Source: Paenibacillus durus ATCC 35681 (GTDB lineage Bacteria; Bacillota; Bacilli; Paenibacillales; Paenibacillaceae). Taken from it: a DNA stretch of 64,000 bases. The stretch spans positions 930,001-994,000 of the forward strand of contig NZ_CP011114.1 of NCBI RefSeq assembly GCF_000993825.1, given 5' to 3'. Shown here piece after piece: positions 50,043 through 63,798 of the stretch. The position numbers were made by a program, and so were the translations under genes. Below the pieces are notes generated by a model. That model was not told where the DNA came from. It ran no database searches and saw only the letters and a list, made by a program, of their open reading frames with translations. How positions within the stretch are numbered: the first letter of the stretch is position 1; every line of letters starts with the position of its first letter.

Positions 50043-50810
50043 ATGAAACCAAGGTCTTCGCGAGTCATGGGTGTTGTCATTGCCGTACTTGTTTTATCCG
50101 GTTTGACCTCGATATCCGCATCGGCTGTTCAATACGGCTATGACGGTCTTGACCGGCTGACTACGGCGGAGGACGACAGCGGACAAATGACGCAATATCA
50201 GTACGATGCGGCCGGAAATTTACTTAGCGTGTTGACAACGGCAAACCTTGCACAGATGAAATCGGCGAATTTATCCGGGGCCGCTTCTGAAGTATGGGAG
50301 GGGTGGACGCCTTATAGTACCGCGGATGTTAACGCCCAATATCATTTGATAGAAAATATGTCGATAACGGATGCCGTCTATGGAAGTGTCCCTGAACCAA
50401 CGGTAACCGCCGATGTGTATATAGAGACAGGTCAATCGGACTCTTACCTCGTTCAGCAAATTTCGGCAGATACGAGTAGAGCTGGGGGCGCAAATGTATA
50501 TAAGGATATAAGGATAACCGGCTCTCAGTCGTACTCCATCGCGGGCTGGATTGAAGGAGAACAGCTGCAGCATGCTGCCGCACAGGCAATCGTTAATTAC
50601 TATGACGCAAGCGGCCGATTGATTGGTCACGAGAATGCCGCAAATGTGCTCGAATCCTCAAATTGGTCTCATTTTGACAAAATATTGTCACCGCCAGGCA
50701 ATGCGGTAAAGGCGCGCGTACACCTGCAGCTGCTGCTGCTTGAAGCGGACGGCTCCGGGACGGCACGTTTTGCGGAAATCACATTTGAGCCTTACAAGGC
50801 CGCGGAATGA
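50043..50810 (+). CDS. small secreted YD-repeat protein preceding the RHS gene
   Basis: 255 residues with GGGAG upstream. Residues 1-~28 are a signal peptide (SSRVMGVVIAVLVLSGLTSISASA). Two YD repeats follow at once (VQYGYDGLDRLTTAEDDSG; QYQYDAAGNLLSVLT). Residues ~65-255 form a single beta-sandwich-like region (WEGWTPYSTADV, QSYSIAGWIEGEQL, AKARVHLQLLLLEADGSGTARF) resembling carbohydrate-binding modules of the CBM4/9 type. Only 14 bases separate it from the giant RHS gene, so they are co-transcribed. It may anchor or escort the large protein; that is inference. Confidence 0.75.
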   Translation: MKPRSSRVMGVVIAVLVLSGLTSISASAVQYGYDGLDRLTTAEDDSGQMTQYQYDAAGNLLSVLTTANLAQMKSANLSGAASEVWEGWTPYSTADVNAQYHLIENMSITDAVYGSVPEPTVTADVYIETGQSDSYLVQQISADTSRAGGANVYKDIRITGSQSYSIAGWIEGEQLQHAAAQAIVNYYDASGRLIGHENAANVLESSNWSHFDKILSPPGNAVKARVHLQLLLLEADGSGTARFAEITFEPYKAAE

Positions 50811-50824
50811 GGCGGAGATAAGAT

Positions 50825-53800
50825 ATGAATCGAAAAATTGCGCTGAGGTACGTTGTTGCGAGTCTGTTCCTGTTTTCATTTTTTTATATCATTAAGCTCC
50901 CGTTCGCCCATGCGGCAACCATGAGTTCCTACAGTCTGTCGCCGGGCGAATCGGCGCTGGTCACTTCATCTTATACAACAACGACCAACATTTATGTCAA
51001 AGGCCCGTCATTTGATTATGTAAAGTATTACGCTGATGGCGGCGTTGCCTATTATGGCCAAAGTACAACTTCAAATACATTCTCAATCATATCCGGACAA
51101 CAGGTGATCGTCACGAATACCTCTTCGGGCACTGTCACGCTGGAGTCCACGACCCGAGTCCTAAACATGAGCTGGAGCTCAACGCCCGCGCTGCTGAAAA
51201 AGTGGCTTGCTCCCGGCCAGAGCATGACGGCGGTTAATGTAAGCGAAGATGCCGAGAGCATTAAGGTCGGCGGAAAAAACGATTATGCGGATTACGATGA
51301 ATTCGGCTCGCTGCTGTCGTATGACACGGACGATATCGGCGGAAGCATGTTGATTTCCGCCGGAGAGCGGTCCGCAATCACGAATCGGAATACAGCCGGT
51401 TACGAAGTCATCGGCCCGTATGAGAGCTTTTCTTTTGCCGATCGCGAGACGCCTGCGGCTTTTCACTGGATACTCCAGCCGGGTGAAACGATGCAGGCCG
51501 TCAGCCATGCGACAAAAAGCTTTTATATCTCCTTCTATCCATATTTTTACGAATTTGCTCTCTACACTGCTGAGGGAGAGCTTGACTCTTACGGCAGTTC
51601 CAGCTATTCTTTACGGACGATTTCACCGTTGGAGCGAATAGTGGTCACCAATCCTGGGAATGAAAATCTGGAAATAACGGGGCCCTATGACGGCTTCACC
51701 GTTACGTCAAGATCGCTTCCGGCCATGTACTCCCGCACACTCCAAAACGGAGAGAGTCTACGTATCCAAAATACGAGCGATAAGGCGTATACCCTCGATT
51801 TCGATGGAACCTATGATTTTGCCGAATACTATGCATCCGGTCAAGTAGCCGGCTTCGGCAGAGCGGCCTTCACATCGACGAACTCCATCGCCGCAGGGGG
51901 ATCGATTACTGTAACCCCATCCGGTTCGGGAACGGTTCAGGTCGTCGGTCCTTACGATGTTTTACAGTTTACCGGCAGCTTCTATCCGGCACTGTACACC
52001 CGGACGGTCAGCCCGGGCGAAAGCCTGGAAGCCGACAATCTGACTTCGGGCACCGCCGGCATTGTGTTGGGCGGCACTTTCGACTATGCCTTGTACAATA
52101 ATCCGGGCGGCATCAAGAGCTACTATGCCAACCGTATCGTTAGTGAATCGTATATTCCCGCGGCGCAGGGGATCGCTTTTACGAATACGGGCTCTTCACC
52201 GGAAGAGATTTATGCTCCTTATGCCGCATTTTCCATCTCCACCCGATCGAATCCCGTTACTTTCAAGAAAACGCTCGCGCCGGGAGAAACGATAAAAGCG
52301 GACAATACGACGCTTTACAGCTTCACGATGACTGTAAGCGGCCAGCACCATTATGTCGTTTACGACAATGGCAGCGAAGTAAGTGAATACGGCCGTCCCG
52401 TGGAGGGAGACAGCTATACAATCGGAGATACGGAGGCGCTGGTTGTTACAAACAGCGGGCTTGTCAATTTGACCGTATCGGGGCCTTATGACGCTTTTCT
52501 GGTCAGCGGCCGCGCTAATCCCGCGCTAAGTAAGACGTATCTTCCTGACGGCGGCAGTTTGAAGGTAAGCAACCTTAGTCCCGGGGCATTCAGCCTTGAT
52601 CTTGAAGGGACTTATGATCAGGCGAGCTATATGGAAGACGGATATCCGCGCTCTTTTGATCGCAAAAGAGCGATTGGCAGCTTGATACTATACAACGGCG
52701 AACGGGTGACATTGACCGGAGCGGGCGGCACGGTACAGGTGATCGCTCCGTATGACGTAACGCAGGTGCAAGCAAGCCCGACACCCGCCCTTGCATTAAG
52801 GACACTGGCGCCGGGGCAAAGCGCCCGGTTCGTTAATATTTCATCAGCAGCGCGAAATATTGAAATGACCGGAACGCATGACATGATGGAATACAGCGCC
52901 GAAGGCACTCCGGGCGATTATTCGAAAGACCGTACGCTGTCTTACGCAAGCCTAAGCGCTGGAACGGCAGCGGCCGTCGAGAACAGCGATGCCCAAGTGA
53001 TCGACGTCTACGGAGCGTATGAGTGTGTTTCCGCAGCGGACCGAAGCGACCCGGTAACCTTTAAGCGGACGCTGTCAACCGGCCAAAGTCTGGATTTAAG
53101 CAATTCGTCGGCCAAGACGTATTATATATACAGCGACGGCCTCTACGATTTTGCGCAGTATGACGGCAATGGAGATGAGACGGATGCGGAACGCGAGTAT
53201 GCGATCCAATCCAAAAGCGTATCCGGCGGGAACCGGCTGGCGCTGACAGCCGCAGCCTCCATTAAGGTTGAAGGACCGTTCGATGTCTTTGCGGTAACCA
53301 CCCGGTCGAATCCGGCTTTATTCGAGTATGATCTCTCGCCGCGGCAAAGTATGGAAGCCGTATATACGGGCCCGGTTAAGGGCGATATTCATATGACGGG
53401 AGAGTATGATTACTCTCTCCGCACAGGAGAAGGACCTGTTGATACGTATGCGCGCAATCTGAGTGTAACGAGCATGGAGACGGTCGTAAACGGGCAGAGA
53501 ATCGCAGTCGAGAACAGTGATGAGACAAGTATTACGGTTTATGGCGCCTATGACGTGTTTCAGGCGTCCTCCCGGATCAATCCGGTGACTTTTCATCGCA
53601 CACTGGCGCCGGGAGAGAGTATCGAGGCCGTTAACAACGCGTCAAAGCTGTTCTATCTGTACACGAACGGCCTTCACGACTATGTTCAGTACGGCAGCGC
53701 CGGAGATGTGGAAGAGATGGACCGGGCGAATATCTACGGCACGAAATCGGCGGCGGCCGGAACGCGCACCCTGATTACTAATGCGGATGCTGTTCCGATA

Positions 53801-56800
53801 TTAGTTGAAGGAGCGTTCGAGGTCTATACGCTGAAGGACCGTACCACTCCGGCGTTATTCGTTTCCGCCCTGCAGCCGGGAACATGGATGGAAACAAAAT
53901 ATACCGGCGATGGAGACGCGGATGTAAAGATAACGGGCACCTACGATTTTGCTTCATATGACAGCACCGGAACGCTCACACAATACGGGCATCATTATTC
54001 ATCCGTGCCTACTCAAAATGTGGCGGCGGGGGAACACATCGCTATTCAGAACAGCGATGAAGCGGGTATCGAAGTGTATGGACCCTACGATTTGTTCCAG
54101 ACGCAGACCCGGGACCATCCGGTTACTTTTGTAAAAACCCTCGGGGCGGACAAGAATGTAGAGATTCATGCCGTCACGGCCAAGCTGCTGTATCTTTATT
54201 TTGACGGGCCCTTTGATTATGCAAGGTATGACGGTGACGGGGGAGTGGCTTCCTTCAACACTTGGTACACGGCGACGGCCCAGCTTCTTCAAGGCGACGA
54301 TAAGCTTGTCGTTTCTCCTTCCGAAGCACAGACGCTCACTCTTTCCGGCGCCTATGACGGTTTTTCCCTGACGGACCGGAATGAAAGGGCGGTTACAGTT
54401 AAAACGCTGCAGAACGGCGAGAGCTACTCGGTTCGCAATATTTCCCCGGATTCTTTCAGCGTTCACATTGACGGCCTTTACGATTATCAAATCTACGACC
54501 TGGCCGGGAATATGGAAAGCTTCGGAAATGACAGCTCGTTGTCGCTCCGGCCGCTGAGTCCGACCAAACGTATCGTTTTAACAACTGCTGACGTCAATCC
54601 GGTAACCGTGGCGGTGCCGACTGATGCCGTGCGGATAACGGACGGAAGCAATCCGGACGAATTTGTAAAAGGACTTGAATCCGGCGAGAGTCTGGAGGCG
54701 GTGAACCAATCCGGCCAAGCAGCTGCGCTTGCTGTAAGCGGCAAGTATGATTTGGCGATTTATACCCCCGGGGGAAATCCGTACAGTTTCGCCAGAGAGA
54801 CGGCGAACGCCGCTATTTCGGTTCCGGCCGGTTATCGGGCCGTACTAACCAACGCGCAGACAGCCGGTACGGTGGTAAGCGGCAGTCAGACGGCTTTCAG
54901 CGTAGCCGACGTGGCCGACCCGGCCTTGAATATTGTGAAGCCGGGTCAGAGCAATACCGTGGAGATCCGGAATATCAGCGCTGCTTCATGGAGTCTTTCG
55001 GCTAACGGCAGTATGAACCGCGTAACGTATAGCGCAAGCGGAACAGTGCTGGATTACGCTTTGAAGGACAGTTCGAGTGCTCTTCCGATCCAGCCATCCG
55101 GCAAGATCGTTGTAACACAGCCGCTTCTTGACGGTCTGGCGCTATGGGGTCCTTACGATGCTATCTCGGTACAAAGTGCTGAACACCCCGCTCTGGACCA
55201 AAGAGAACTGAAAGAAAACGGGGCGCTGACGGCACATAATCTGACCAATCAGGACCAAACCGTGAAAATGGAAGGATCTTTTACGTATTCCATTGACCAG
55301 GGAACAGAGCAGCCCGGACAAAGCCCGCTCACTGTTCCGGCCGGAGCGGTCGTATTGATCCGTAATACTGAGCCTGCCGGTTACCAGGTTTACGCTCCGT
55401 ACGGTATCTTCGAATGGAAGGAAGCCGGGGATGGAACGGGACCGATCTCCGGCAGCGGGGCAGCCGGGGAGATTGCCAAGCTGGACCCGGCGGATTATGA
55501 TCCGCAAACGTTCTATTCCGATCCGGTCGATACGGCCACCGGCGCGCAGGTGATTAACCGGACCCTCTTAACCGCGCACGGAGCTGTACCGATTCCGTTC
55601 CAGGTACAATATCATTCCCTGTTGACCGGAGAGGGAGCGCTCGGCAGCGGATGGAGTCATAATTTTGCCATTCGCTTGAATGCGGATGCTAGCGGCGACA
55701 CTGTAAAAGTAAACTGGAACGATTTCCGCGGCAATACGTTTATTCGGAATTCAAACGGTGTATTCTCTTCTTCGGATGAGGCCGCAAGACAGGATAGCCT
55801 GACGAAAAATCCGGATGGCACATATGTGCTTAACCGGGGTGACGGCACCGTGTATCGGTTTAATGCGTCGGGACGCCTCGCCTCTATGAACGAGAAAACC
55901 GGATTGCAGGTTGTATTCTCCTATTCTTCGGACGGCCGGCTTGCAGCGGTGACAGAGCCGCTTACCGGTGCAAAGGTCACTCTCGCCTACAATGCCGAAG
56001 GCCGCGTTTCCACCGTATCGGACCAGGCGGGCAGACAGGTTTCCTTTGCCTATGATACGGGCGGAAGACTGAATGAAATAACCGACGCCGCAGGCAGGAC
56101 AACCCATTATAGCTATGACAGTAATAATAGGATTGTTTCAGCGGCAAGCGGCGACGTCCAATTATTTGGGAATGTGTTCGACAGCGAAGGAAGAGTTGTA
56201 CAGCAGCAGGATGCGGTGGCCGGAGGCAATCCAACTAAATTTGCCTATGCGGAAACATCCGGTCAGCTTGTGACCACCATCACCGACCGTAACGGACATA
56301 TCCAGAAACGGACGCATGATGCGAAATACCGTCTTTTAAGCGTAGAAGACGAATTAGGACGCACGACGGCATATGAGTACGATAATGACGGCAACCGGAC
56401 CGGCGTAACGAATGCGCTGAATCAGACGGCGACCTATACCTATGATGCGCGGGGAAACCTGACCGGGGCAACCGATTATACCGGAAATACCATTCAAATG
56501 ACTTACGATTCGGCGAATAAATTGTTGACGGCAACAGGTCCAGATGGGAACACGGTAGTGAACACCTATGACAATAGCAATCGGCTCTTGACGGTGACCG
56601 ATCCTGCGAGCGGGACAACGACCTATAAGTATGACGATAACGGGCTGCTTCTGTCCGCAGCTGATCCGCTTAACGGTATCACGAGCTACACCTATACCGG
56701 AAACCGGTTGACGGGCGTGCAAAACGCAGAAGGTGAAACGGCGGTATTCGGTTATGATAGCGCCGGCCGGTTGGTAAGCCAAAAGGATGCGGAAGGCCAT

Positions 56801-59452
56801 GAGACGGTGCTGGCCTATAATGCCGACGATCAGCTCGTGACGGAGACCGACCCGCTCGGGAATACTTCCTCTTACACGTATAACGATCAAGGGTTCCTGA
56901 CCACCGAAACGGATGCGCTCGGCAACACGACAAGCTACGTCTATGACGGCAACGGCAACGTAACCGAAGTTTCCAATGCGCTGAATGAAACGATTGCCTT
57001 TCAATATGACGGTGAAGGCCGGCTTAGCAGTCTGAGCGATCCCCTTGGACACAGCATGACGTACACCTATGATGATGCTGGCAATTTACTCACGGAGACC
57101 AATGCGGCAGGCGAAACGGTGCGGTACGTCTATGACGCGCTGAATCGGGTGACGGAGGCGTACGACGCGGCTAACGTCAGGATTTATGCGGCTGCGTATG
57201 ATGCAGCTGGCAATCTTAAGACGCTGACGGATGCATTGGATCACACGCGGACGAATGTGTACGATGGTTTGAACCGGCTGACACAGACAATCGATCCGCT
57301 TCAGCGGACAACAAGCTACGCCTACAATAATCTGAACCGGCTGATCTCGGTGACGGACCCGCTTCAAGGACAGGCTGGCCGCAGTTTCGATGCGCTGAGC
57401 CGGATCACGGCTGTTACCGATCCAAATGCGAATACGACCGGCTACACCTATGATCTGGTCGGCCGCCTAACCGGAGAAACGGATGCGTCCGGCGGCAGCC
57501 GGGCCTATCAATACAACGCGCTTGGTCTGCTTGCAGGGGAGACGAACGGACGCGGTCAGGCAACGGCCTACACTTATGATGCCGCTGGACGTCTTGCAGC
57601 ATTTACGGACCCGGTTGGCAGCGTAACGTATACTTATGACGCCAACGGAAACGTGAAGGCTGTTACCGATGGAAGCGGCAAGACACTAACCCGTACGTTT
57701 GACAAGCTGGACCGGGTGGAGCAGTACACCGACGAGGACGGCAATGCGATTCGCTACACCTATGATGCGGCAGGCAGCTTGACTGCGATAACTTATCCCG
57801 ACGGCAAAACGGTTACGTATACGTATGATGCCGCCGGAAGGATGAAGACCGTCACGGATTGGAATAACCGGGTAACAACCTACGGGTACGATGTAAACGG
57901 CCGGCTCGTGTCTACGGAGAGACCGGACGGGACCGTGGAGACCCGCACATATGATGCGAATGGTCAGCTGGCAAGCCTGTCCGATAAGAGAGCGGATGGC
58001 AGCGTCATTTACGGAGCCGGGTATCTGTACGATGCCGCCGGCAATGTGGTAACGGAAACGGTGGATGGGGCACCGACCGTAATCTCTAGTGTATATGGTT
58101 CCGAATATACGGTTGACATCAACGGTCCGGGCTTGTCGCCGAGCGCGGAGCCGCTCACCCCGGGCAATGCGGAAATGACCTACACGGCCGACAACCGGCT
58201 TGCGACTTATAACGGCAGCCCCGTTACCTATGATGCGGACGGCAATATGACGTATGGTCCTCTTCAGGGCATTCCGCAAGCTTACGAGTACGACGCGCGC
58301 AACCGTCTGACGGAAGCGGGCGGCGTGAGCTATGGATACAACAGCGAGAACAACAGAACATCGGTAACGGCAAACGGCGTGACCACCAAGTATGTCATTG
58401 ATCCGAACGCGATGCTGCCGCGGGTGCTGATGGAGACGGACGGACAAGGACAGGCGAAAGCCCGGTACGTGTACGGTCTTGGCTTGATCGGCCGCGAGGA
58501 TGCTTCGGGCGACTACCAGACCTATCATTACGACCGCCGTGGCAGCACAGTGGCGCTGACCGATGAAACCGGACAGACGACCGACACCTACACCTACGGC
58601 AATTACGGCGAACGGCTGGATCATCAAGGAACGCTGGAGCAGCCGTTCCAATACAACGGACGCGACGGCGTAATGACGGATGCGAACGGACTGTACTATA
58701 TGCGGGCGCGGTATTATAATCCGGATATCAAGCGGTTTGTGAACCGGGATGTGGTGACGGGAACGATCTCCGGCGCGCAAACGCTGAACCGATACGCCTA
58801 CGTGAATGGCAACCCCATCTCCTATGTCGATCCGTTCGGCCTCAGCCGGGACGGAGACTCGATCTGGCTGAAGGGCGCCAGCTTCCTGGCGGACCTGACG
58901 CCCGGACTGGGCACAGTGAAGGGATTCCAGCAGGCTTTCACGGGAAGGAACTACGTCACCGGAGAGCGGCTGTCCGTAGCGGACCGCTGGTCGGAAGGCA
59001 TCGGCTCGACGCTGAGCCTGATCCCGATTCCCGGGCTGAAGTATGTCGGGAAGTACGGAACCGAGGAAGCGGTACTGGCGGGTAAAGGTATTCGGAAGTG
59101 GTTGGGGCTCGGGGGTAAGGGTGCGGGTAAATATCAAGTTGGAGCATATAAAGATATTAAAGGAGTAGAAGGACTAGATGCCCATCATGCAGGGCAGAAG
59201 GCAGTAATGAAGAAATTAGTGGATAATTATGATCCAAATACTGCTCCGGCAATAAATGTTCCAAAGGTAGGTCATACAATAAAAGGCCCTAATGGTATAG
59301 TTTCGAGAAGTACCAAAGGAATAGAAAATGCTAGACAGCTATTGGCAAGGGATATTATGGAACTAAGAAGAGTCTATGATGACATACCAAATTCTGCATT
59401 AAAAGAACTTATTGAACTAAACAAAAAAATGTATCCAGAAATGAGGAAATAA
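50825..59452 (+). CDS. giant secreted RHS/YD-repeat polymorphic toxin
   Basis: 2875 residues. A signal peptide (1-30, ending AHA) is followed by about 17 tandem ~88-residue repeats (38-~1540), each opening L-x-P-G-E-S and containing G-x-Y-D-x-x-x-Y and a G-P-Y-D near its end. From ~1553 the RHS part starts with SDPVDTATGAQVINRTLL, then dozens of YD repeats (Y-x-Y-D-x-x-G-N/R-L) and the RHS core ending at DPFGLS near residue 2669. A pretoxin segment (ADLTPGLGTVKGFQQAFTG) leads to a variable tip from ~2768, with DAHHAGQKAVM and VPKVGHT, tentatively an HNH/EndoVII-like nuclease. GC content falls sharply in the tip. The immunity candidate begins one base after the stop. Confidence 0.92.
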   Translation: MNRKIALRYVVASLFLFSFFYIIKLPFAHAATMSSYSLSPGESALVTSSYTTTTNIYVKGPSFDYVKYYADGGVAYYGQSTTSNTFSIISGQQVIVTNTSSGTVTLESTTRVLNMSWSSTPALLKKWLAPGQSMTAVNVSEDAESIKVGGKNDYADYDEFGSLLSYDTDDIGGSMLISAGERSAITNRNTAGYEVIGPYESFSFADRETPAAFHWILQPGETMQAVSHATKSFYISFYPYFYEFALYTAEGELDSYGSSSYSLRTISPLERIVVTNPGNENLEITGPYDGFTVTSRSLPAMYSRTLQNGESLRIQNTSDKAYTLDFDGTYDFAEYYASGQVAGFGRAAFTSTNSIAAGGSITVTPSGSGTVQVVGPYDVLQFTGSFYPALYTRTVSPGESLEADNLTSGTAGIVLGGTFDYALYNNPGGIKSYYANRIVSESYIPAAQGIAFTNTGSSPEEIYAPYAAFSISTRSNPVTFKKTLAPGETIKADNTTLYSFTMTVSGQHHYVVYDNGSEVSEYGRPVEGDSYTIGDTEALVVTNSGLVNLTVSGPYDAFLVSGRANPALSKTYLPDGGSLKVSNLSPGAFSLDLEGTYDQASYMEDGYPRSFDRKRAIGSLILYNGERVTLTGAGGTVQVIAPYDVTQVQASPTPALALRTLAPGQSARFVNISSAARNIEMTGTHDMMEYSAEGTPGDYSKDRTLSYASLSAGTAAAVENSDAQVIDVYGAYECVSAADRSDPVTFKRTLSTGQSLDLSNSSAKTYYIYSDGLYDFAQYDGNGDETDAEREYAIQSKSVSGGNRLALTAAASIKVEGPFDVFAVTTRSNPALFEYDLSPRQSMEAVYTGPVKGDIHMTGEYDYSLRTGEGPVDTYARNLSVTSMETVVNGQRIAVENSDETSITVYGAYDVFQASSRINPVTFHRTLAPGESIEAVNNASKLFYLYTNGLHDYVQYGSAGDVEEMDRANIYGTKSAAAGTRTLITNADAVPILVEGAFEVYTLKDRTTPALFVSALQPGTWMETKYTGDGDADVKITGTYDFASYDSTGTLTQYGHHYSSVPTQNVAAGEHIAIQNSDEAGIEVYGPYDLFQTQTRDHPVTFVKTLGADKNVEIHAVTAKLLYLYFDGPFDYARYDGDGGVASFNTWYTATAQLLQGDDKLVVSPSEAQTLTLSGAYDGFSLTDRNERAVTVKTLQNGESYSVRNISPDSFSVHIDGLYDYQIYDLAGNMESFGNDSSLSLRPLSPTKRIVLTTADVNPVTVAVPTDAVRITDGSNPDEFVKGLESGESLEAVNQSGQAAALAVSGKYDLAIYTPGGNPYSFARETANAAISVPAGYRAVLTNAQTAGTVVSGSQTAFSVADVADPALNIVKPGQSNTVEIRNISAASWSLSANGSMNRVTYSASGTVLDYALKDSSSALPIQPSGKIVVTQPLLDGLALWGPYDAISVQSAEHPALDQRELKENGALTAHNLTNQDQTVKMEGSFTYSIDQGTEQPGQSPLTVPAGAVVLIRNTEPAGYQVYAPYGIFEWKEAGDGTGPISGSGAAGEIAKLDPADYDPQTFYSDPVDTATGAQVINRTLLTAHGAVPIPFQVQYHSLLTGEGALGSGWSHNFAIRLNADASGDTVKVNWNDFRGNTFIRNSNGVFSSSDEAARQDSLTKNPDGTYVLNRGDGTVYRFNASGRLASMNEKTGLQVVFSYSSDGRLAAVTEPLTGAKVTLAYNAEGRVSTVSDQAGRQVSFAYDTGGRLNEITDAAGRTTHYSYDSNNRIVSAASGDVQLFGNVFDSEGRVVQQQDAVAGGNPTKFAYAETSGQLVTTITDRNGHIQKRTHDAKYRLLSVEDELGRTTAYEYDNDGNRTGVTNALNQTATYTYDARGNLTGATDYTGNTIQMTYDSANKLLTATGPDGNTVVNTYDNSNRLLTVTDPASGTTTYKYDDNGLLLSAADPLNGITSYTYTGNRLTGVQNAEGETAVFGYDSAGRLVSQKDAEGHETVLAYNADDQLVTETDPLGNTSSYTYNDQGFLTTETDALGNTTSYVYDGNGNVTEVSNALNETIAFQYDGEGRLSSLSDPLGHSMTYTYDDAGNLLTETNAAGETVRYVYDALNRVTEAYDAANVRIYAAAYDAAGNLKTLTDALDHTRTNVYDGLNRLTQTIDPLQRTTSYAYNNLNRLISVTDPLQGQAGRSFDALSRITAVTDPNANTTGYTYDLVGRLTGETDASGGSRAYQYNALGLLAGETNGRGQATAYTYDAAGRLAAFTDPVGSVTYTYDANGNVKAVTDGSGKTLTRTFDKLDRVEQYTDEDGNAIRYTYDAAGSLTAITYPDGKTVTYTYDAAGRMKTVTDWNNRVTTYGYDVNGRLVSTERPDGTVETRTYDANGQLASLSDKRADGSVIYGAGYLYDAAGNVVTETVDGAPTVISSVYGSEYTVDINGPGLSPSAEPLTPGNAEMTYTADNRLATYNGSPVTYDADGNMTYGPLQGIPQAYEYDARNRLTEAGGVSYGYNSENNRTSVTANGVTTKYVIDPNAMLPRVLMETDGQGQAKARYVYGLGLIGREDASGDYQTYHYDRRGSTVALTDETGQTTDTYTYGNYGERLDHQGTLEQPFQYNGRDGVMTDANGLYYMRARYYNPDIKRFVNRDVVTGTISGAQTLNRYAYVNGNPISYVDPFGLSRDGDSIWLKGASFLADLTPGLGTVKGFQQAFTGRNYVTGERLSVADRWSEGIGSTLSLIPIPGLKYVGKYGTEEAVLAGKGIRKWLGLGGKGAGKYQVGAYKDIKGVEGLDAHHAGQKAVMKKLVDNYDPNTAPAINVPKVGHTIKGPNGIVSRSTKGIENARQLLARDIMELRRVYDDIPNSALKELIELNKKMYPEMRK
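50936..55440 (+). repeat. about 17 tandem copies of an ~88-residue protein repeat
   Basis: The repeats were counted by their opening motif (LSPGES, LAPGQS, LQPGET, LQNGES, VSPGES, LAPGET, LPDGGS, LAPGQS, LSTGQS, LSPRQS, LAPGES, LQPGTW, LGADKN, LQNGES, LESGES, KPGQSN, LKENGA). Most units carry G-x-Y-D-F/Y-A-x-Y after ~25 residues and a closing GPYD-x-F then R-x-x-P-A/V. They are diverged at DNA level, so they are old. Beta-rich; no known repeat family is recognised. Confidence 0.8.
57527..59126. repeat. 1.6-kb direct repeat, copy A (3' end of the RHS gene)
   Basis: Nearly identical to 59842-61442, covering the last YD repeats, the RHS core and the pretoxin segment. Identity ends exactly where the toxin tip begins. 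The inner 505 bases (58616-59120) are repeated a third time at 62938-63443. Confidence 0.92.
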
Positions 59453-59841: not shown

Positions 59842-61442
59842 CTGCTTGCAGGGGAGACGAACGGACGCGGTCAGGCAACGGGCTACATTTATGATGCCGC
59901 TGGACGTCTTGCAGCATTTACGGACCTGGTTGGCAGCGTAACGTATACTTATGACGCCAACGGAAACGTGAAGGTTGTTACCGATGGAAGCGGCAAGACA
60001 CTGACCCGTACGTTTGACAAGCTGGACCGGGTGGAGCAGTACACCGACGAGGACGGCAATGCGATTTGCTACACCTATGATGCGGCAGGCAGCTTGACTG
60101 CGATCAATTATCCCGACGGCAAAACGGTTACGTATACGTATGATACCGCCGGAAGGATGAAGACCGTCACGGATTGGAATAACCGGGTAACAACCTATGG
60201 GTACGATGTAAACGGCCGGCTCGTGTTTACGGAGAGACCGGACGGGACCGTGGAGACCCGCACATATGATGCGAATGGTCAGTTGGCAGGCCTTGTCCGA
60301 CAAGAGAGCGGATGGCAGCGTCATTTACGGAGCCGGGTATCTGTACGATGCCGCCGGCAATGTGGTAACGGAAACAGTGGACGGGGCACCGACCGTAATC
60401 TCTAGTGTATATGGTTCCGAATATACGGTTGACATCAACGGTCCGGGCTTGTCGCCGAGCGCGGAGCCGCTCACCCCGGGCAATGCGGAAATGACCTACA
60501 CGGCCGACAACCGGCTTGCGACTTATAACGGCAGCCCCGTTACCTATGATGCGGACGGCAATATGACGTATGGTCCTCTTCAGGGCATTCCGCAAGCTTA
60601 CGAGTACGACGCGCGCAACCGTCTGACGGAAGCGGGCGGCGTGAGCTATGGATACAACAGCGAGAACAACAGAACATCGGTAACGGCAAACGGCGTGACC
60701 ACCAAGTATGTCATTGATCCGAACGCGATGCTGCCGCGGGTGCTGATGGAGACGGACGGACAAGGACAGGCGAAAGCCCGGTACGTGTACGGTCTTGGCT
60801 TGATCGGCCGCGAGGATGCTTCGGGCGACTACCAGACCTATCATTACGACCGCCGTGGCAGCACAGTGGCGCTGACCGATGAAACCGGACAGACGACGGA
60901 CACTTACACCTACGGCAATTACGGCGAACGGCTGGATCATCAAGGGACGATAGAGCAGCCGTTCCAATACAACGGACGCGACGGCGTAATGACGGATGCG
61001 AACGGACTGTACTACATGCGTGCGCGGTATTATAATCCGGATATCAAGCGGTTTGTGAACCGGGATGTGGTGACGGGAACGATCTCCGGCGCGCAAACGC
61101 TGAACCGATACGCCTACGTGAATGGCAACCCCATCTCCTATGTCGATCCGTTCGGCCTCAGCCGGGACGGAGACTCGATCTGGCTGAAGGGCGCCAGCTT
61201 CCTGGCGGACCTGACGCCCGGACTGGGCACGGTGAAGGGATTCCAGCAAGCTTTCACGGGAAGGAACTATGTAACCGGAGAGCGGCTGTCCGTAGCGGAC
61301 CGCTGGTCGGAAGGCATCGGCTCTACGCTGAGCCTAATCCCGATTCCCGGGCTGAAGTACGTCGGGAAGTACGGAACCGAGGAAGCAGTACTGGCGGGTA
61401 AAGGTATTCGGAAGTGGCTGGGGCTCGGGGGTAAGGGTGCGG
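59842..61442. repeat. 1.6-kb direct repeat, copy B
   Basis: Matches 57527-59126 with a handful of substitutions and one inserted base near 60291. It starts in the middle of a YD repeat with no start signal, as expected of a recombination-derived or donor cassette. Confidence 0.92.
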
Positions 61443-61644
61443 ATAAACTTGATTTTGTCGAAGAGACAGGTCGTCTTGGTGGTAAAATGTATAGTGAGAG
61501 AGATTTACAATTATTAGGTAAATATCTCAAAAAAGAGGAGTTAGATTAAATGTTGGAGATGAGTTTCTTGGGGTAGGAAAAGGTGGGGCTTTTGATGCTA
61601 CAAATGGAGCGTTATATTTAAGAAGTAATCCTACACAATATGAA

Positions 61645-61875
61645 GTGTGGCATGAGCTATCTCACTACATTCAATATAAAAATCTAGGCAAGGAAGAATA
61701 CCTGAAGCTACCTCGTACTCAGGGACAAATACCTATGGACGACTTAACAAGATTTAATGCACCTGAACAATTTGTATTCGACATGCTTTCCAATTCAAAG
61801 CGGTGGAATAAGTTAAATGAAGCCGAACAAAGGCATGCGAATTGGTATATCGATAATTTTGGAGGTATTCGATAA
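61645..61875 (+). other. zinc-metallopeptidase toxin domain of cassette 2
   Basis: This is the catalytic end of the cassette 2 tip, in the frame reached after the A6 shift. WHELSHYIQYK holds the HExxH zinc motif and catalytic Glu; RFNAPEQFVFDML and EQRHANWYIDNFGG would contribute further ligands. It resembles the MPTase toxin domains at the tips of polymorphic toxins. If translated alone from GTG 61645 it would lack the upstream part of the domain. Confidence 0.75.
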
Positions 61876-62112
61876 ATGAGTGAATTAAGAAAAGAAGTTA
61901 CAGAAGAAGAGGTTAAACAAATAGCACTTCAACATATCGCTCAAAATCCTTCCAATACTTTCAATTATCATTTTATGAGTATTAATAAAAGCATAAACCG
62001 ATATCCTTGCTGGTCAGTAATTTTTGAGACACGGACCTTCAATGGAGATTTAGTAGATGGTCCCTTAGTATTAGGTATTGATGAATATGGGGAAATTATT
62101 TTTATCGGCTAA
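61876..62112 (+). CDS. candidate immunity protein for the metallopeptidase tip
   Basis: 78 residues. The ATG follows directly after the toxin stop (TAAATG), and GGAGG lies inside the toxin end at 61861-61865. The pattern EEEVKQIALQHIAQNP then WSVIFETRTF, DGPLVLGIDEYGEIIFIG is a helix followed by beta strands like small PepSY/YrhA-like domains found among immunity proteins. It remains intact although the toxin is frameshifted. Ended by the hairpin at 62122. Confidence 0.75.
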   Translation: MSELRKEVTEEEVKQIALQHIAQNPSNTFNYHFMSINKSINRYPCWSVIFETRTFNGDLVDGPLVLGIDEYGEIIFIG

Positions 62113-62422
62113 AGGTTTCATGAACCTCGATTGGCTTCAAGCCTATTCGGGGTTCTTTTTTGTGGGGCCACCCGTGTGACCCATGTATTACCCGTATAAA
62201 GATTTCGCCATTTCGTTTATGCGTACATCAACGCTTGAGTTTTATACCCTAAATAACGCCGTTTTCTCACAGTTTTTTCAATTAATACGCAACTTTTGAA
62301 ACAGAAAGTGTTATGGATATAGTGTTAGGAAGCTTACCTGTTAAGCTTTCTTTTAGCGCAGAACTTATAGACACATGGTTGCTGGATCACTAAGGGACGA
62401 GGGGAAAAGGGGGGAAACCTAG
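62113..62422. other. spacer between cassettes with a short RHS scar
   Basis: Contains the terminator at 62122-62163 and, at 62381-62400, GCTGGATCACTAAGGGACGA, which is like the RHS core sequence GCTGGATCATCAAGGAACG at 58616. No gene seen. The short match looks like a leftover recombination junction. Confidence 0.5.
62122..62163 (+). terminator. terminator after cassette 2 immunity gene
   Basis: GAACCTCGA pairs with TTCGGGGTTC around TTGGCTTCAAGCCTA, followed by TTTTTT. Its loop sequence is similar to that of the hairpin at 62878. Confidence 0.8.
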
Positions 62423-62863
62423 ATGACTTTGGAGGATAAATTAAAAATAGTCATAGATGGACAAACAGTTTATTTATTAGACCCAGTTTTATTTAAGAGT
62501 ATAAAAGCAGACAAGGAAATAAATGCAATTAAAGTTAACAGTATGGATTTAGTAAGTGAAATTATACCGTTTATTGAAGATAATGCAGAATCTTCCTTGA
62601 TTTGTTATCTGTTAGGCCGTAATTGGATGTTTTGTATTGTTTATCGTGTAGACAACACATGGAAAAGGGTTCAAATTGAGAACTTAACTTGTAATGAATG
62701 TGGATGGCAAGGGATATCGGCGAACCCTACAATTCCAGAATTGTATTTAGGGACACCAAATCGCTGGGAAACCTTAGAAGAAACCGATTTTATTTATTCT
62801 GTAAAATGCCCACAATGCAAACAAGAATTACCTAGAGTTTCTTTATGGACAAAAACTTTATAG
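62423..62863 (+). CDS. zinc-ribbon-like small protein between cassettes, possible orphan immunity gene
   Basis: 146 residues, strong GGGGGG site 7 bases upstream, AT-rich. The first ~80 residues are mixed (LKIVIDGQTVYLLDPVLFKS; WMFCIVYRV). Two CxxC pairs (LTCNECGWQG; VKCPQCKQEL) suggest a zinc ribbon. Lying right after an RHS scar and before another RHS cassette, it is probably the immunity gene of a tip that has been lost. I do not recognise the family. Confidence 0.65.
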   Translation: MTLEDKLKIVIDGQTVYLLDPVLFKSIKADKEINAIKVNSMDLVSEIIPFIEDNAESSLICYLLGRNWMFCIVYRVDNTWKRVQIENLTCNECGWQGISANPTIPELYLGTPNRWETLEETDFIYSVKCPQCKQELPRVSLWTKTL

Positions 62864-62877
62864 TGAAATTTTCTTTA

Positions 62878-62916
62878 ACCTTGATTGGCTTTATGCCTTT
62901 CAAGGTTATCTTTTTA
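62878..62916 (+). terminator. terminator after the zinc-ribbon gene
   Basis: AACCTTGA pairs with TCAAGGTT around TTGGCTTTATGCCTT, followed by ATCTTTTT. Confidence 0.8.
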
Positions 62917-62937
62917 ACTCGAACTGATCGACATGAT

Positions 62938-63443
62938 TGCTGATCACCAAGGAACGATGGAGCAGCCGTTCCAGTATAACGGACGCGACGGCGTAATGAC
63001 GGATGCGAACGGACTGTACTACATGCGTGCGCGGTATTATAATCCGGATATCAAGCGGTTCGTGAACCGGGATGTGGTGACGGGAACGATCTCCAGCGCG
63101 CAAACGCTGAACCGATACGCCTACGTGAATGGCAACCCCATCTCCTATGTCGATCCGTTCGGCCTCAGCCGGGACGGAGACTCGATCTGGCTGCAGGGCG
63201 CCAGCTTCCTGGCGGACCTGACGCCCGGACTGGGCATGGTGAAGGGATTCCAGCAAGCTTTCACGGGAAGGAACTACGTAACTGGAGAGCGGCTGTCCGT
63301 AGCGGACCGCTGGTCGGAAGGCGTCGGCTCGACGCTGAGCCTGATCCCGATTCCCGGGCTGAAGTACGTCGGGAAGTACGGGACCGAGGAAGCGGTACTG
63401 GCGGGCAAAGGTATTCGGAAGTGGTTGGGGCTCGGGGGTAAGG
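62938..63443. repeat. 0.5-kb direct repeat, copy C (RHS core plus pretoxin)
   Basis: Matches 58616-59120 almost exactly, from GATCACCAAGGAACG through DPFGLS to the pretoxin end. Third and shortest copy of the RHS 3' region. Confidence 0.92.
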
Positions 63444-63798
63444 GGACGGGAGAACTTAAATATTGGAACAAAGCAACAGAATTTAATGGGACAAAGGTTT
63501 ACCAAAGGAATGACATAATCGACCCTAACTTGACAGATAAATTAGGAAAAACTAATCTGGAAAGGATGAAGCAGGGGCTTGCACCTATAGGGCCAGATGG
63601 TAAATCTATAAATCTACATCACACAATTCAGACTAATGATAGCCGATAGCAGAAGTCACCCAAACATTCCATAAGGACAACCATTCTATTATTCATATTA
63701 ACCCGAACACCATTCCATCAGGGATAAATCGAGCGGAGTTTGACAAGTTTAGAAAGGCATACTGGAAGAACAGAGCTAACGATTTTATTGACGAATAG
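62938..63798 (+). pseudogene. silent RHS cassette 3 with LHH-type nuclease tip, frameshifted
   Basis: No start codon or ribosome site precedes it. After the RHS core and pretoxin the tip starts at ~63444 (GELKYWNKATEFNGTKVYQ). It reads KQGLAPIGPDGKSINLHHTIQTND, the Tox-LHH nuclease signature, then stops at TAG 63647-63649 in AGCCGATAG. Restoring one missing C (AGCCCGATA) continues PIAEVTQTFHKDNHSIIHINPN and FDKFRKAYWKNRANDFIDE to the stop at 63798, which includes further His residues expected in LHH nucleases. The toxin is therefore split by a single-base loss. Confidence 0.85.

Follow-up and report, generated by a model that had tools for sequence, protein, structure and literature searches.

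A repeated domain of predicted jelly-roll fold ahead of the shell of a putative RHS toxin of Paenibacillus durus, and its occurrence on separate proteins that end in a pair of YD motifs

The stretch of DNA analysed here comprises 64,000 nucleotides of Paenibacillus durus ATCC 35681 (contig NZ_CP011114.1, positions 930,001 to 994,000; hereafter, the window) and contains a gene for a putative secreted RHS toxin whose N-terminal half is built of 17 consecutive units (the stalk). The unit belongs to no named sequence family, is predicted to fold as a cupin-like jelly roll, and occurs in two main gene arrangements: (i) fused to the RHS shell in a single open reading frame (ORF), as in the window; and (ii) on a separate protein which is encoded directly ahead of an RHS gene and ends, as a rule, in a single pair of YD motifs. 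We give about an even chance to the reading that the array is a presentation fibre, attached to the toxin shell in cis or, with the YD pair as docking tag, in trans. Gene boundaries are those of mechanically called ORFs, and signal peptides were assessed by eye throughout. The coordinates of the features are collected in Table 1.

Autocorrelation of toxin residues 1-1560 with the BLOSUM62 matrix (lags 20-399) gave its top value at lag 89 (z 8.1), with harmonics at lags 178 (z 5.6), 267 (z 5.1) and also 356. An iterative hidden Markov model (HMM) placed 17 units across the array with 63-103 bits each; its E-values are not independent, because it was trained on these same 17 units, and its last seed held one stretch of the YD region. 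A chance or low-complexity repeat was ruled out by the period and by the HMM units. Seven weaker HMM matches in the YD region (residues 1691-2395, at most 27.7 bits), which a broader model scores below zero, were excluded from the unit count. A preliminary description of this DNA had announced about 17 copies of a repeat of some 88 residues at positions 50936-55440: the array and the number of copies stand, the period is 89 residues instead, and the limits are shifted to those in Table 1. The motifs it had listed were found in the aligned units as claimed, namely L-x-P-G-E-S at the opening, G-x-Y-D inside, and G-P-Y-D and then R-x-x-P at the close.

The same description had considered the repeat to be without a recognised family and, in effect, Pfam and NCBIfam searches returned no named sequence family for it. 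With the whole toxin as query, nothing in Pfam matched over the array at E 0.01; with 37 units as queries, 17 Pfam families appeared at E 0.0097 or weaker, each for one unit and none reaching its curated cut-off. The unit had no usable match in PHROGs or in NCBIfam, where one stray match was recorded (NF052427 on residues 277-354 of L030, 21.4 bits versus a cut-off of 900; here, L denotes stretches and G genomes). Against the PDB, the best match by sequence was 3jx8 (E 0.1), and the unit profile matched best to 6e5c_A (E 0.00097), a de novo beta protein, along just 24 residues. A weak match to Enas (endospore appendage) in L031 (E 0.01) was below cut-off.

Structure prediction for three adjacent units (units 9-11), based on a shallow alignment, gave a high-confidence model (predicted local distance difference test, pLDDT, 93.7; predicted template modelling score, pTM, 0.86) with one compact beta domain per unit, that is, the compact repeated beta fold that the preliminary description had named as supporting evidence. 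The best structural matches each span one unit of the model (91-179 and 181-265), and Foldseek searches of PDB and BFVD found no match to the whole three-unit model (TMq <=0.27 among the best 50 matches listed for each). On this model, the fold class appears to be that of a cupin-like jelly roll, which is a common one; hence, the domain is novel as a sequence family and not as a fold. From known cupin-like or double-stranded beta-helix jelly rolls it differs in its lack of a sequence family match and in that no conserved His column is present among 16 units, whereas enzymatic metal cupins carry a conserved metal-binding His motif.

Inside the window array, pairwise identity between units has a mean of 27% and a maximum of 42%. 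Unit n of the window best matches unit n of Paenibacillus albidus (L028), L135 and L136 in 17 of 17 cases each, and of L137 in 15 of 17, the last three stretches belonging to other genera of the same family. When compared with arrays of 14 units, the same index is kept for 10 of the 17 (L133) or 7 of the 17 (L140), the order being partly retained. A recent tandem duplication of units was ruled out by the 27% identity together with this positional orthology. Unit numbers recur too: fused arrays have 17 units in six loci, 14 in five (L139 and L142 carry further units on a broken piece) and 16 in L141, which is truncated by a contig end, and separate arrays mostly have 9 or 11. Given the positional orthology across genera and the recurring unit counts, the length and order of the array are largely fixed and old. 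Between the window and P. albidus, the stalk is 68% identical (dN 0.21, dS 2.73; nonsynonymous and synonymous divergence, respectively) and the shell 77% (dN 0.15, dS 1.74); the dS values are near saturation in both and serve only as a sign of purifying selection.

The locus arrangement was examined in 64 stretches including the window, with the surroundings taken from 61 of the 68 positive genomes of the family (G154, G219, G260, G379, G383, G384 and G390 were left out, although G390 entered later as L171) and with units at 12 bits or fewer dropped from the counts. Six order-level positive genomes of a second family were also left out of this set, as were L035 and L036, L028 covering the same gene. 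The array and RHS share one ORF at 12 of the 64 loci; at 41, a separate protein carries the array and RHS follows as the next same-strand ORF. The array is, in consequence, more often separate than fused, a point absent from the preliminary description. The test which that description had named, co-occurrence of the unit with RHS cores, came out in its favour at 53 of the 64 loci. Separate stalk proteins are 1055-1295 amino acids (aa) long (654 in L148, cut by a contig end); the RHS ORFs next to them have at least 10 YD motifs, and the spacing goes from a 4-base overlap to 89 bases. In L034 there is only a fragment, in which no repeat ORF was called, and L147 is truncated by the end of its contig. 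Of the five large RHS frames in the window's own genome, only one has the stalk. Two other proteins with the unit can be recorded in their own right: at L105:10067-13231, seven stalk units are followed by a C-terminal end that is HNH-like by eye, with no RHS shell and no Pfam match; and at L144:5436-7520, one stalk unit is followed by other domains and an end that is EndoU-like by eye, again with no Pfam match.

Regarding distribution (threshold E 1e-5, window's own genome included), the window's own units as query found 8 positive genomes among 100 of the genus. A broader profile was positive in (i) 68 of 394 genomes from the family, spread over 7 of 19 genera; (ii) 24 of 198 genomes of the order, six of them belonging to the second family; and (iii) two of an even draw of 398 genomes of the phylum, namely that of the window and another from the same family. 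As 13 candidates were scored per genome for family and phylum, and 26 for the order, these searches give minimum unit counts. A pattern-based scan of named genomes had a single relative as result, P. albidus.

Separate stalk ORFs of 6 or more units number 46, of which 42 are closed by one pair of YD motifs (the tag), behind which lies a K-rich tail with F-P-F or similar. The other four lack this YD tail: L029 has a degenerate end, L110 a broken frame and L105 a different C-terminus, and L147 stops at a contig end. Among 11 stalk representatives (less than 70% identical, out of 41), the mean pairwise identity was 48% for the tag, 62% for the tail, 46% for the repeats, 39% for the preceding domain and 24% for the linker; in other words, tag and tail are better conserved than the preceding domain and the linker.

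Fused loci also contain an isolated YD pair, located on a companion ORF of 238-593 aa which carries the pair behind a signal-like start. Such an ORF with two YD motifs is upstream at all 12 fused loci; it directly precedes the toxin ORF in 10, and a broken stalk piece intervenes in L139 and L142. Of the 12 companions, 10 were aligned. As companions were selected for exactly two YD motif matches, the single-pair pattern is partly due to selection. The companion in the window, not mentioned in the preliminary description, matches PF05593 at residues 33-67 (E 3.1e-10). The second part of the protein is CBM_4_9-like in four of the five companions scanned, clearly in L136 (249.5 bits, 3 stretches) and below cut-off in L133, L137 and L138.

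Tagged genes are found beside RHS genes without the stalk as well. In a control set of 14 stretches, which contain 11 stalk-less RHS ORFs over thresholds, a tagged ORF is upstream of six of them (L149, L153, L154, twice in L155, and L156). L150, L158, L161 and L162 have no RHS ORF over thresholds; L158 has a tagged ORF upstream and L150 none. In genome G256, a tagged ORF is directly upstream of five of six stalk-less RHS genes, and the tagged modules are four PA14 domains, three CBM_4_9 domains, a galactose-binding-like one, an Ig-like one and one without assignment. In the window's genome, a run of five tagged genes, whose tags score 15.5-36.6 bits, lies ahead of an RHS gene of 1841 aa; the modules of this run (L179) are two GBS_Bsp-like ones, one made up of repeats without assignment, a ricin-B lectin, and a broken piece with the tag, behind which comes an F5/8C piece. 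A broken tagged gene, in pieces of 102 and 294 aa, occurs in L149/L179. Genome scans with RHS_repeat gave at least 113 matches in the window's genome (150 of 201 candidates scored), all in five RHS loci, two of which have isolated-YD frames upstream of RHS, and at least 96 in G256 (150 of 204 scored), all in four RHS regions. An island in G256 (L153-L155; G256:C1 785-843 kb) has four RHS genes and ten isolated-YD frames, with some tagged frames behind the last RHS gene. One further RHS gene in the window's genome has its start overlapped, over 4 bases, by the ORF of an SLH-domain protein (L151:9034-11028); this protein shows no clear YD pair and is possibly a separate anchor.

As for the toxin ORF itself, it presents the traits of RHS polymorphic toxins: (i) a YD/RHS repeat array; (ii) a core with the conserved shell end; and (iii) a pre-toxin domain and a variable end, the identity to P. 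albidus being 77% in the shell and 49% in the residues that follow (2681-2875). The last 120 residues had no family match in Pfam and NCBIfam scans, and an LDAHH motif seen in them by eye hints at a His-Me nuclease. The candidate immunity protein had no Pfam or NCBIfam match. The orphan rhs tips located 3' of the toxin (59968-63649) are the usual displaced cassettes.

Table 1. Position of the features in the window (the last row refers to another stretch of the same genome)
Feature	Coordinates	Strand	Details
Companion ORF, 255 aa	50043..50810	+	start resembling a signal peptide (by eye), then a single YD pair and a C-terminal part
YD pair (tag) of companion	50127..50240	+	residues about 29-66; from alignments
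Toxin ORF	50825-59452	+	single open frame, 2875 aa
Signal-peptide-like start of toxin	50825..50917	+	residues 1-31; translation judged by eye
Array of 17 units, predicted jelly-roll-like	50921..55420	+	residues 33-1532; period 89 aa; limits by HMM
Units 9-11 (input of structure prediction)	53048..53842	+	residues 742-1006
DUF6531	55520..55741	+	residues 1566-1639; PF20148, E 1.1e-13
RHS/YD shell	55742..58594	+	residues about 1640-2590; PF05593, E 9.9e-123, 21 stretches; TIGR01643
RHS-associated core	58595..58843	+	residues 2591-2673; TIGR03696, E 6.4e-19; DPFGL at residue 2669
PT-TG pre-toxin domain	58871..59089	+	residues 2683-2755; PF14449, E 2.2e-12
Toxin C-terminal end	59090..59449	+	residues 2756-2875 (120 residues)
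Candidate immunity gene, 116 aa	59454..59804	+	placed by position alone
Orphan rhs tip	59968-60405		YD repeats
Orphan rhs tip	60266-61549		core and PT-TG
Orphan rhs tip	62933-63649		core, PT-TG and first part of LHH nuclease domain
Run of tagged genes	L179:9635-17281 (G000:C1 1615.6-1623.3 kb)		directly upstream of RHS gene

The preliminary description had put forward a wall-spanning or adhesive fibre that presents the toxin cocoon, an interpretation that the results support in part. In the presentation-fibre reading, the ORF would encode a Sec-secreted polymorphic RHS toxin whose shell (DUF6531, YD repeats and core) would enclose the C-terminal toxin. The 17 different jelly-roll domains would form a fibre that holds the shell off the surface of the producer, and their varied faces may also make contacts. 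A separate fibre, encoded by the gene just upstream, would join the shell in trans, its C-terminal YD pair extending the cocoon's YD sheet with strands of its own. The 255-aa companion of the window would dock likewise, and a carbohydrate-binding module would anchor the assembly to glycans of the wall or matrix. It is from the anatomy of these proteins and the association of their genes that we infer a fibre carrying the shell and a YD pair acting as a clip. A broader proposal, which we hold tentatively and at less than an even chance, is that the isolated YD pair is a docking tag on secreted adhesive or anchoring proteins of Paenibacillales, plugging into the adjacent RHS cocoon; it would cover jelly-roll stalk, lectin, PA14, CBM, GBS_Bsp-like and perhaps F5/8C modules.

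Several observations weigh against these proposals. At 9 of the 64 loci, the next ORF after the repeat ORF is not RHS: L100, L110 and L117 have broken frames and RHS lies further downstream, and L105, L131, L143, L144, L145 and L146 have no RHS neighbour. These six loci (seven units in L105; four in L131, which ends in a YD pair; four in L143; and one each in L144, L145 and L146) indicate that the unit can occur without a shell. No tagged ORF is present at 5 of the 11 control RHS ORFs (L151, L152, L157, L159 and L160). In a draw of DUF6531 places (16 of 20, the four left out lying in the window's genome), only L171 and L175 qualify for a tagged neighbour; L171 is itself a stalk locus, and the upstream ORF of L175 consists of DUF6531 and several YD repeats, with no plain pair. 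From the controls and this draw, it follows that the tag belongs to some RHS groups and not to all of them. Regarding anchoring, the Pfam scan found neither SLH nor CBM in the toxin protein and no CBM_4_9 in the companion of the window, whose predicted structure (pLDDT 44.7) was too poor for a fold search.

Other explanations share part of the evidence. Units that differ strongly yet hold their position across genera fit position-specific surfaces better than a plain spacer and, besides, several tagged neighbours bear lectin, PA14 or CBM domains. Both facts would suit an array that is mainly an adhesin for glycans or surface proteins on target cells, with spacing as an incidental effect and the YD pairs as short adhesive modules without docking; nevertheless, with curated cut-offs the unit has no match to a family of ligand-binding domains, and we regard this explanation as rather doubtful. 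In another alternative, which we consider unlikely, the isolated YD pairs are left over from the shuffling of rhs cassettes or serve as handles for recombination in it; they would be associated with RHS by origin and have no role in assembly. Within the stalk C-terminus, conservation is highest in the pair and its tail, and the pair occurs on unrelated modules, where it follows signal-like starts, and may lie N- or C-terminally; on the other hand, displaced cassettes are known at RHS loci, such as the orphan tips of the window, and some tagged genes are broken. Finally, a role of the array as no more than a passive or chaperone-like spacer, removed by cleavage at the cell surface, would leave the separate stalks with their own YD pair unexplained and seems highly improbable to us, even though self-cleavage N-terminal of RHS shells is reported (PMC13018210, PMC7170923).

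Gram-positive RHS/YD toxins of the WapA kind share with the window toxin the signal-like start, DUF6531, YD shell, Rhs core ending in DPFGL, pre-toxin domain, variable end, neighbouring immunity candidate and orphan cassettes. By contrast, the N-terminal half consists here of 17 unnamed jelly-roll-like units, and adhesive modules are also found on separate YD-tagged proteins. In TcB-TcC of Tc toxins, the RHS cocoon is formed from two polypeptides, each giving many YD strands; this two-chain cocoon is a precedent for YD strands provided in trans, whereas here the partner gives one pair. Lectin domains within the RHS toxin chain itself have been described (Zhang et al., 2012; PMC3482391). Bacterial teneurin-like proteins, defined by FN-plug, NHL and YD shell, are shell toxins with varied N-terminal adhesion modules and occur also in Paenibacillaceae (PMC13018210). 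The window toxin has in common with them the shell toxin and the varied N-terminal modules; its membership in the group was discarded, since PF25023 (Teneurin YD-shell) scored 24.5 bits versus a cut-off of 50 and the Pfam scan gave no NHL match at E 0.01. Among the matches listed in the open-access literature (titles and starts of abstracts), no description of the stalk or of YD-tagged accessory proteins was found.

To our knowledge, little is known about how Gram-positive RHS toxins are held at the surface and aimed. A domain family that is part of the toxin chain at some loci and forms a separate protein with a YD pair at others offers a concrete, testable model of modular assembly, in which the shell and the targeting parts would be made apart and joined via the shell's own repeat. 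If the isolated pair is a docking tag, a single toxin shell could receive interchangeable targeting modules, as many as five at one locus, and YD-tagged neighbours would make it possible to identify, from sequence alone, which anchors and adhesins belong to a group of RHS toxins.

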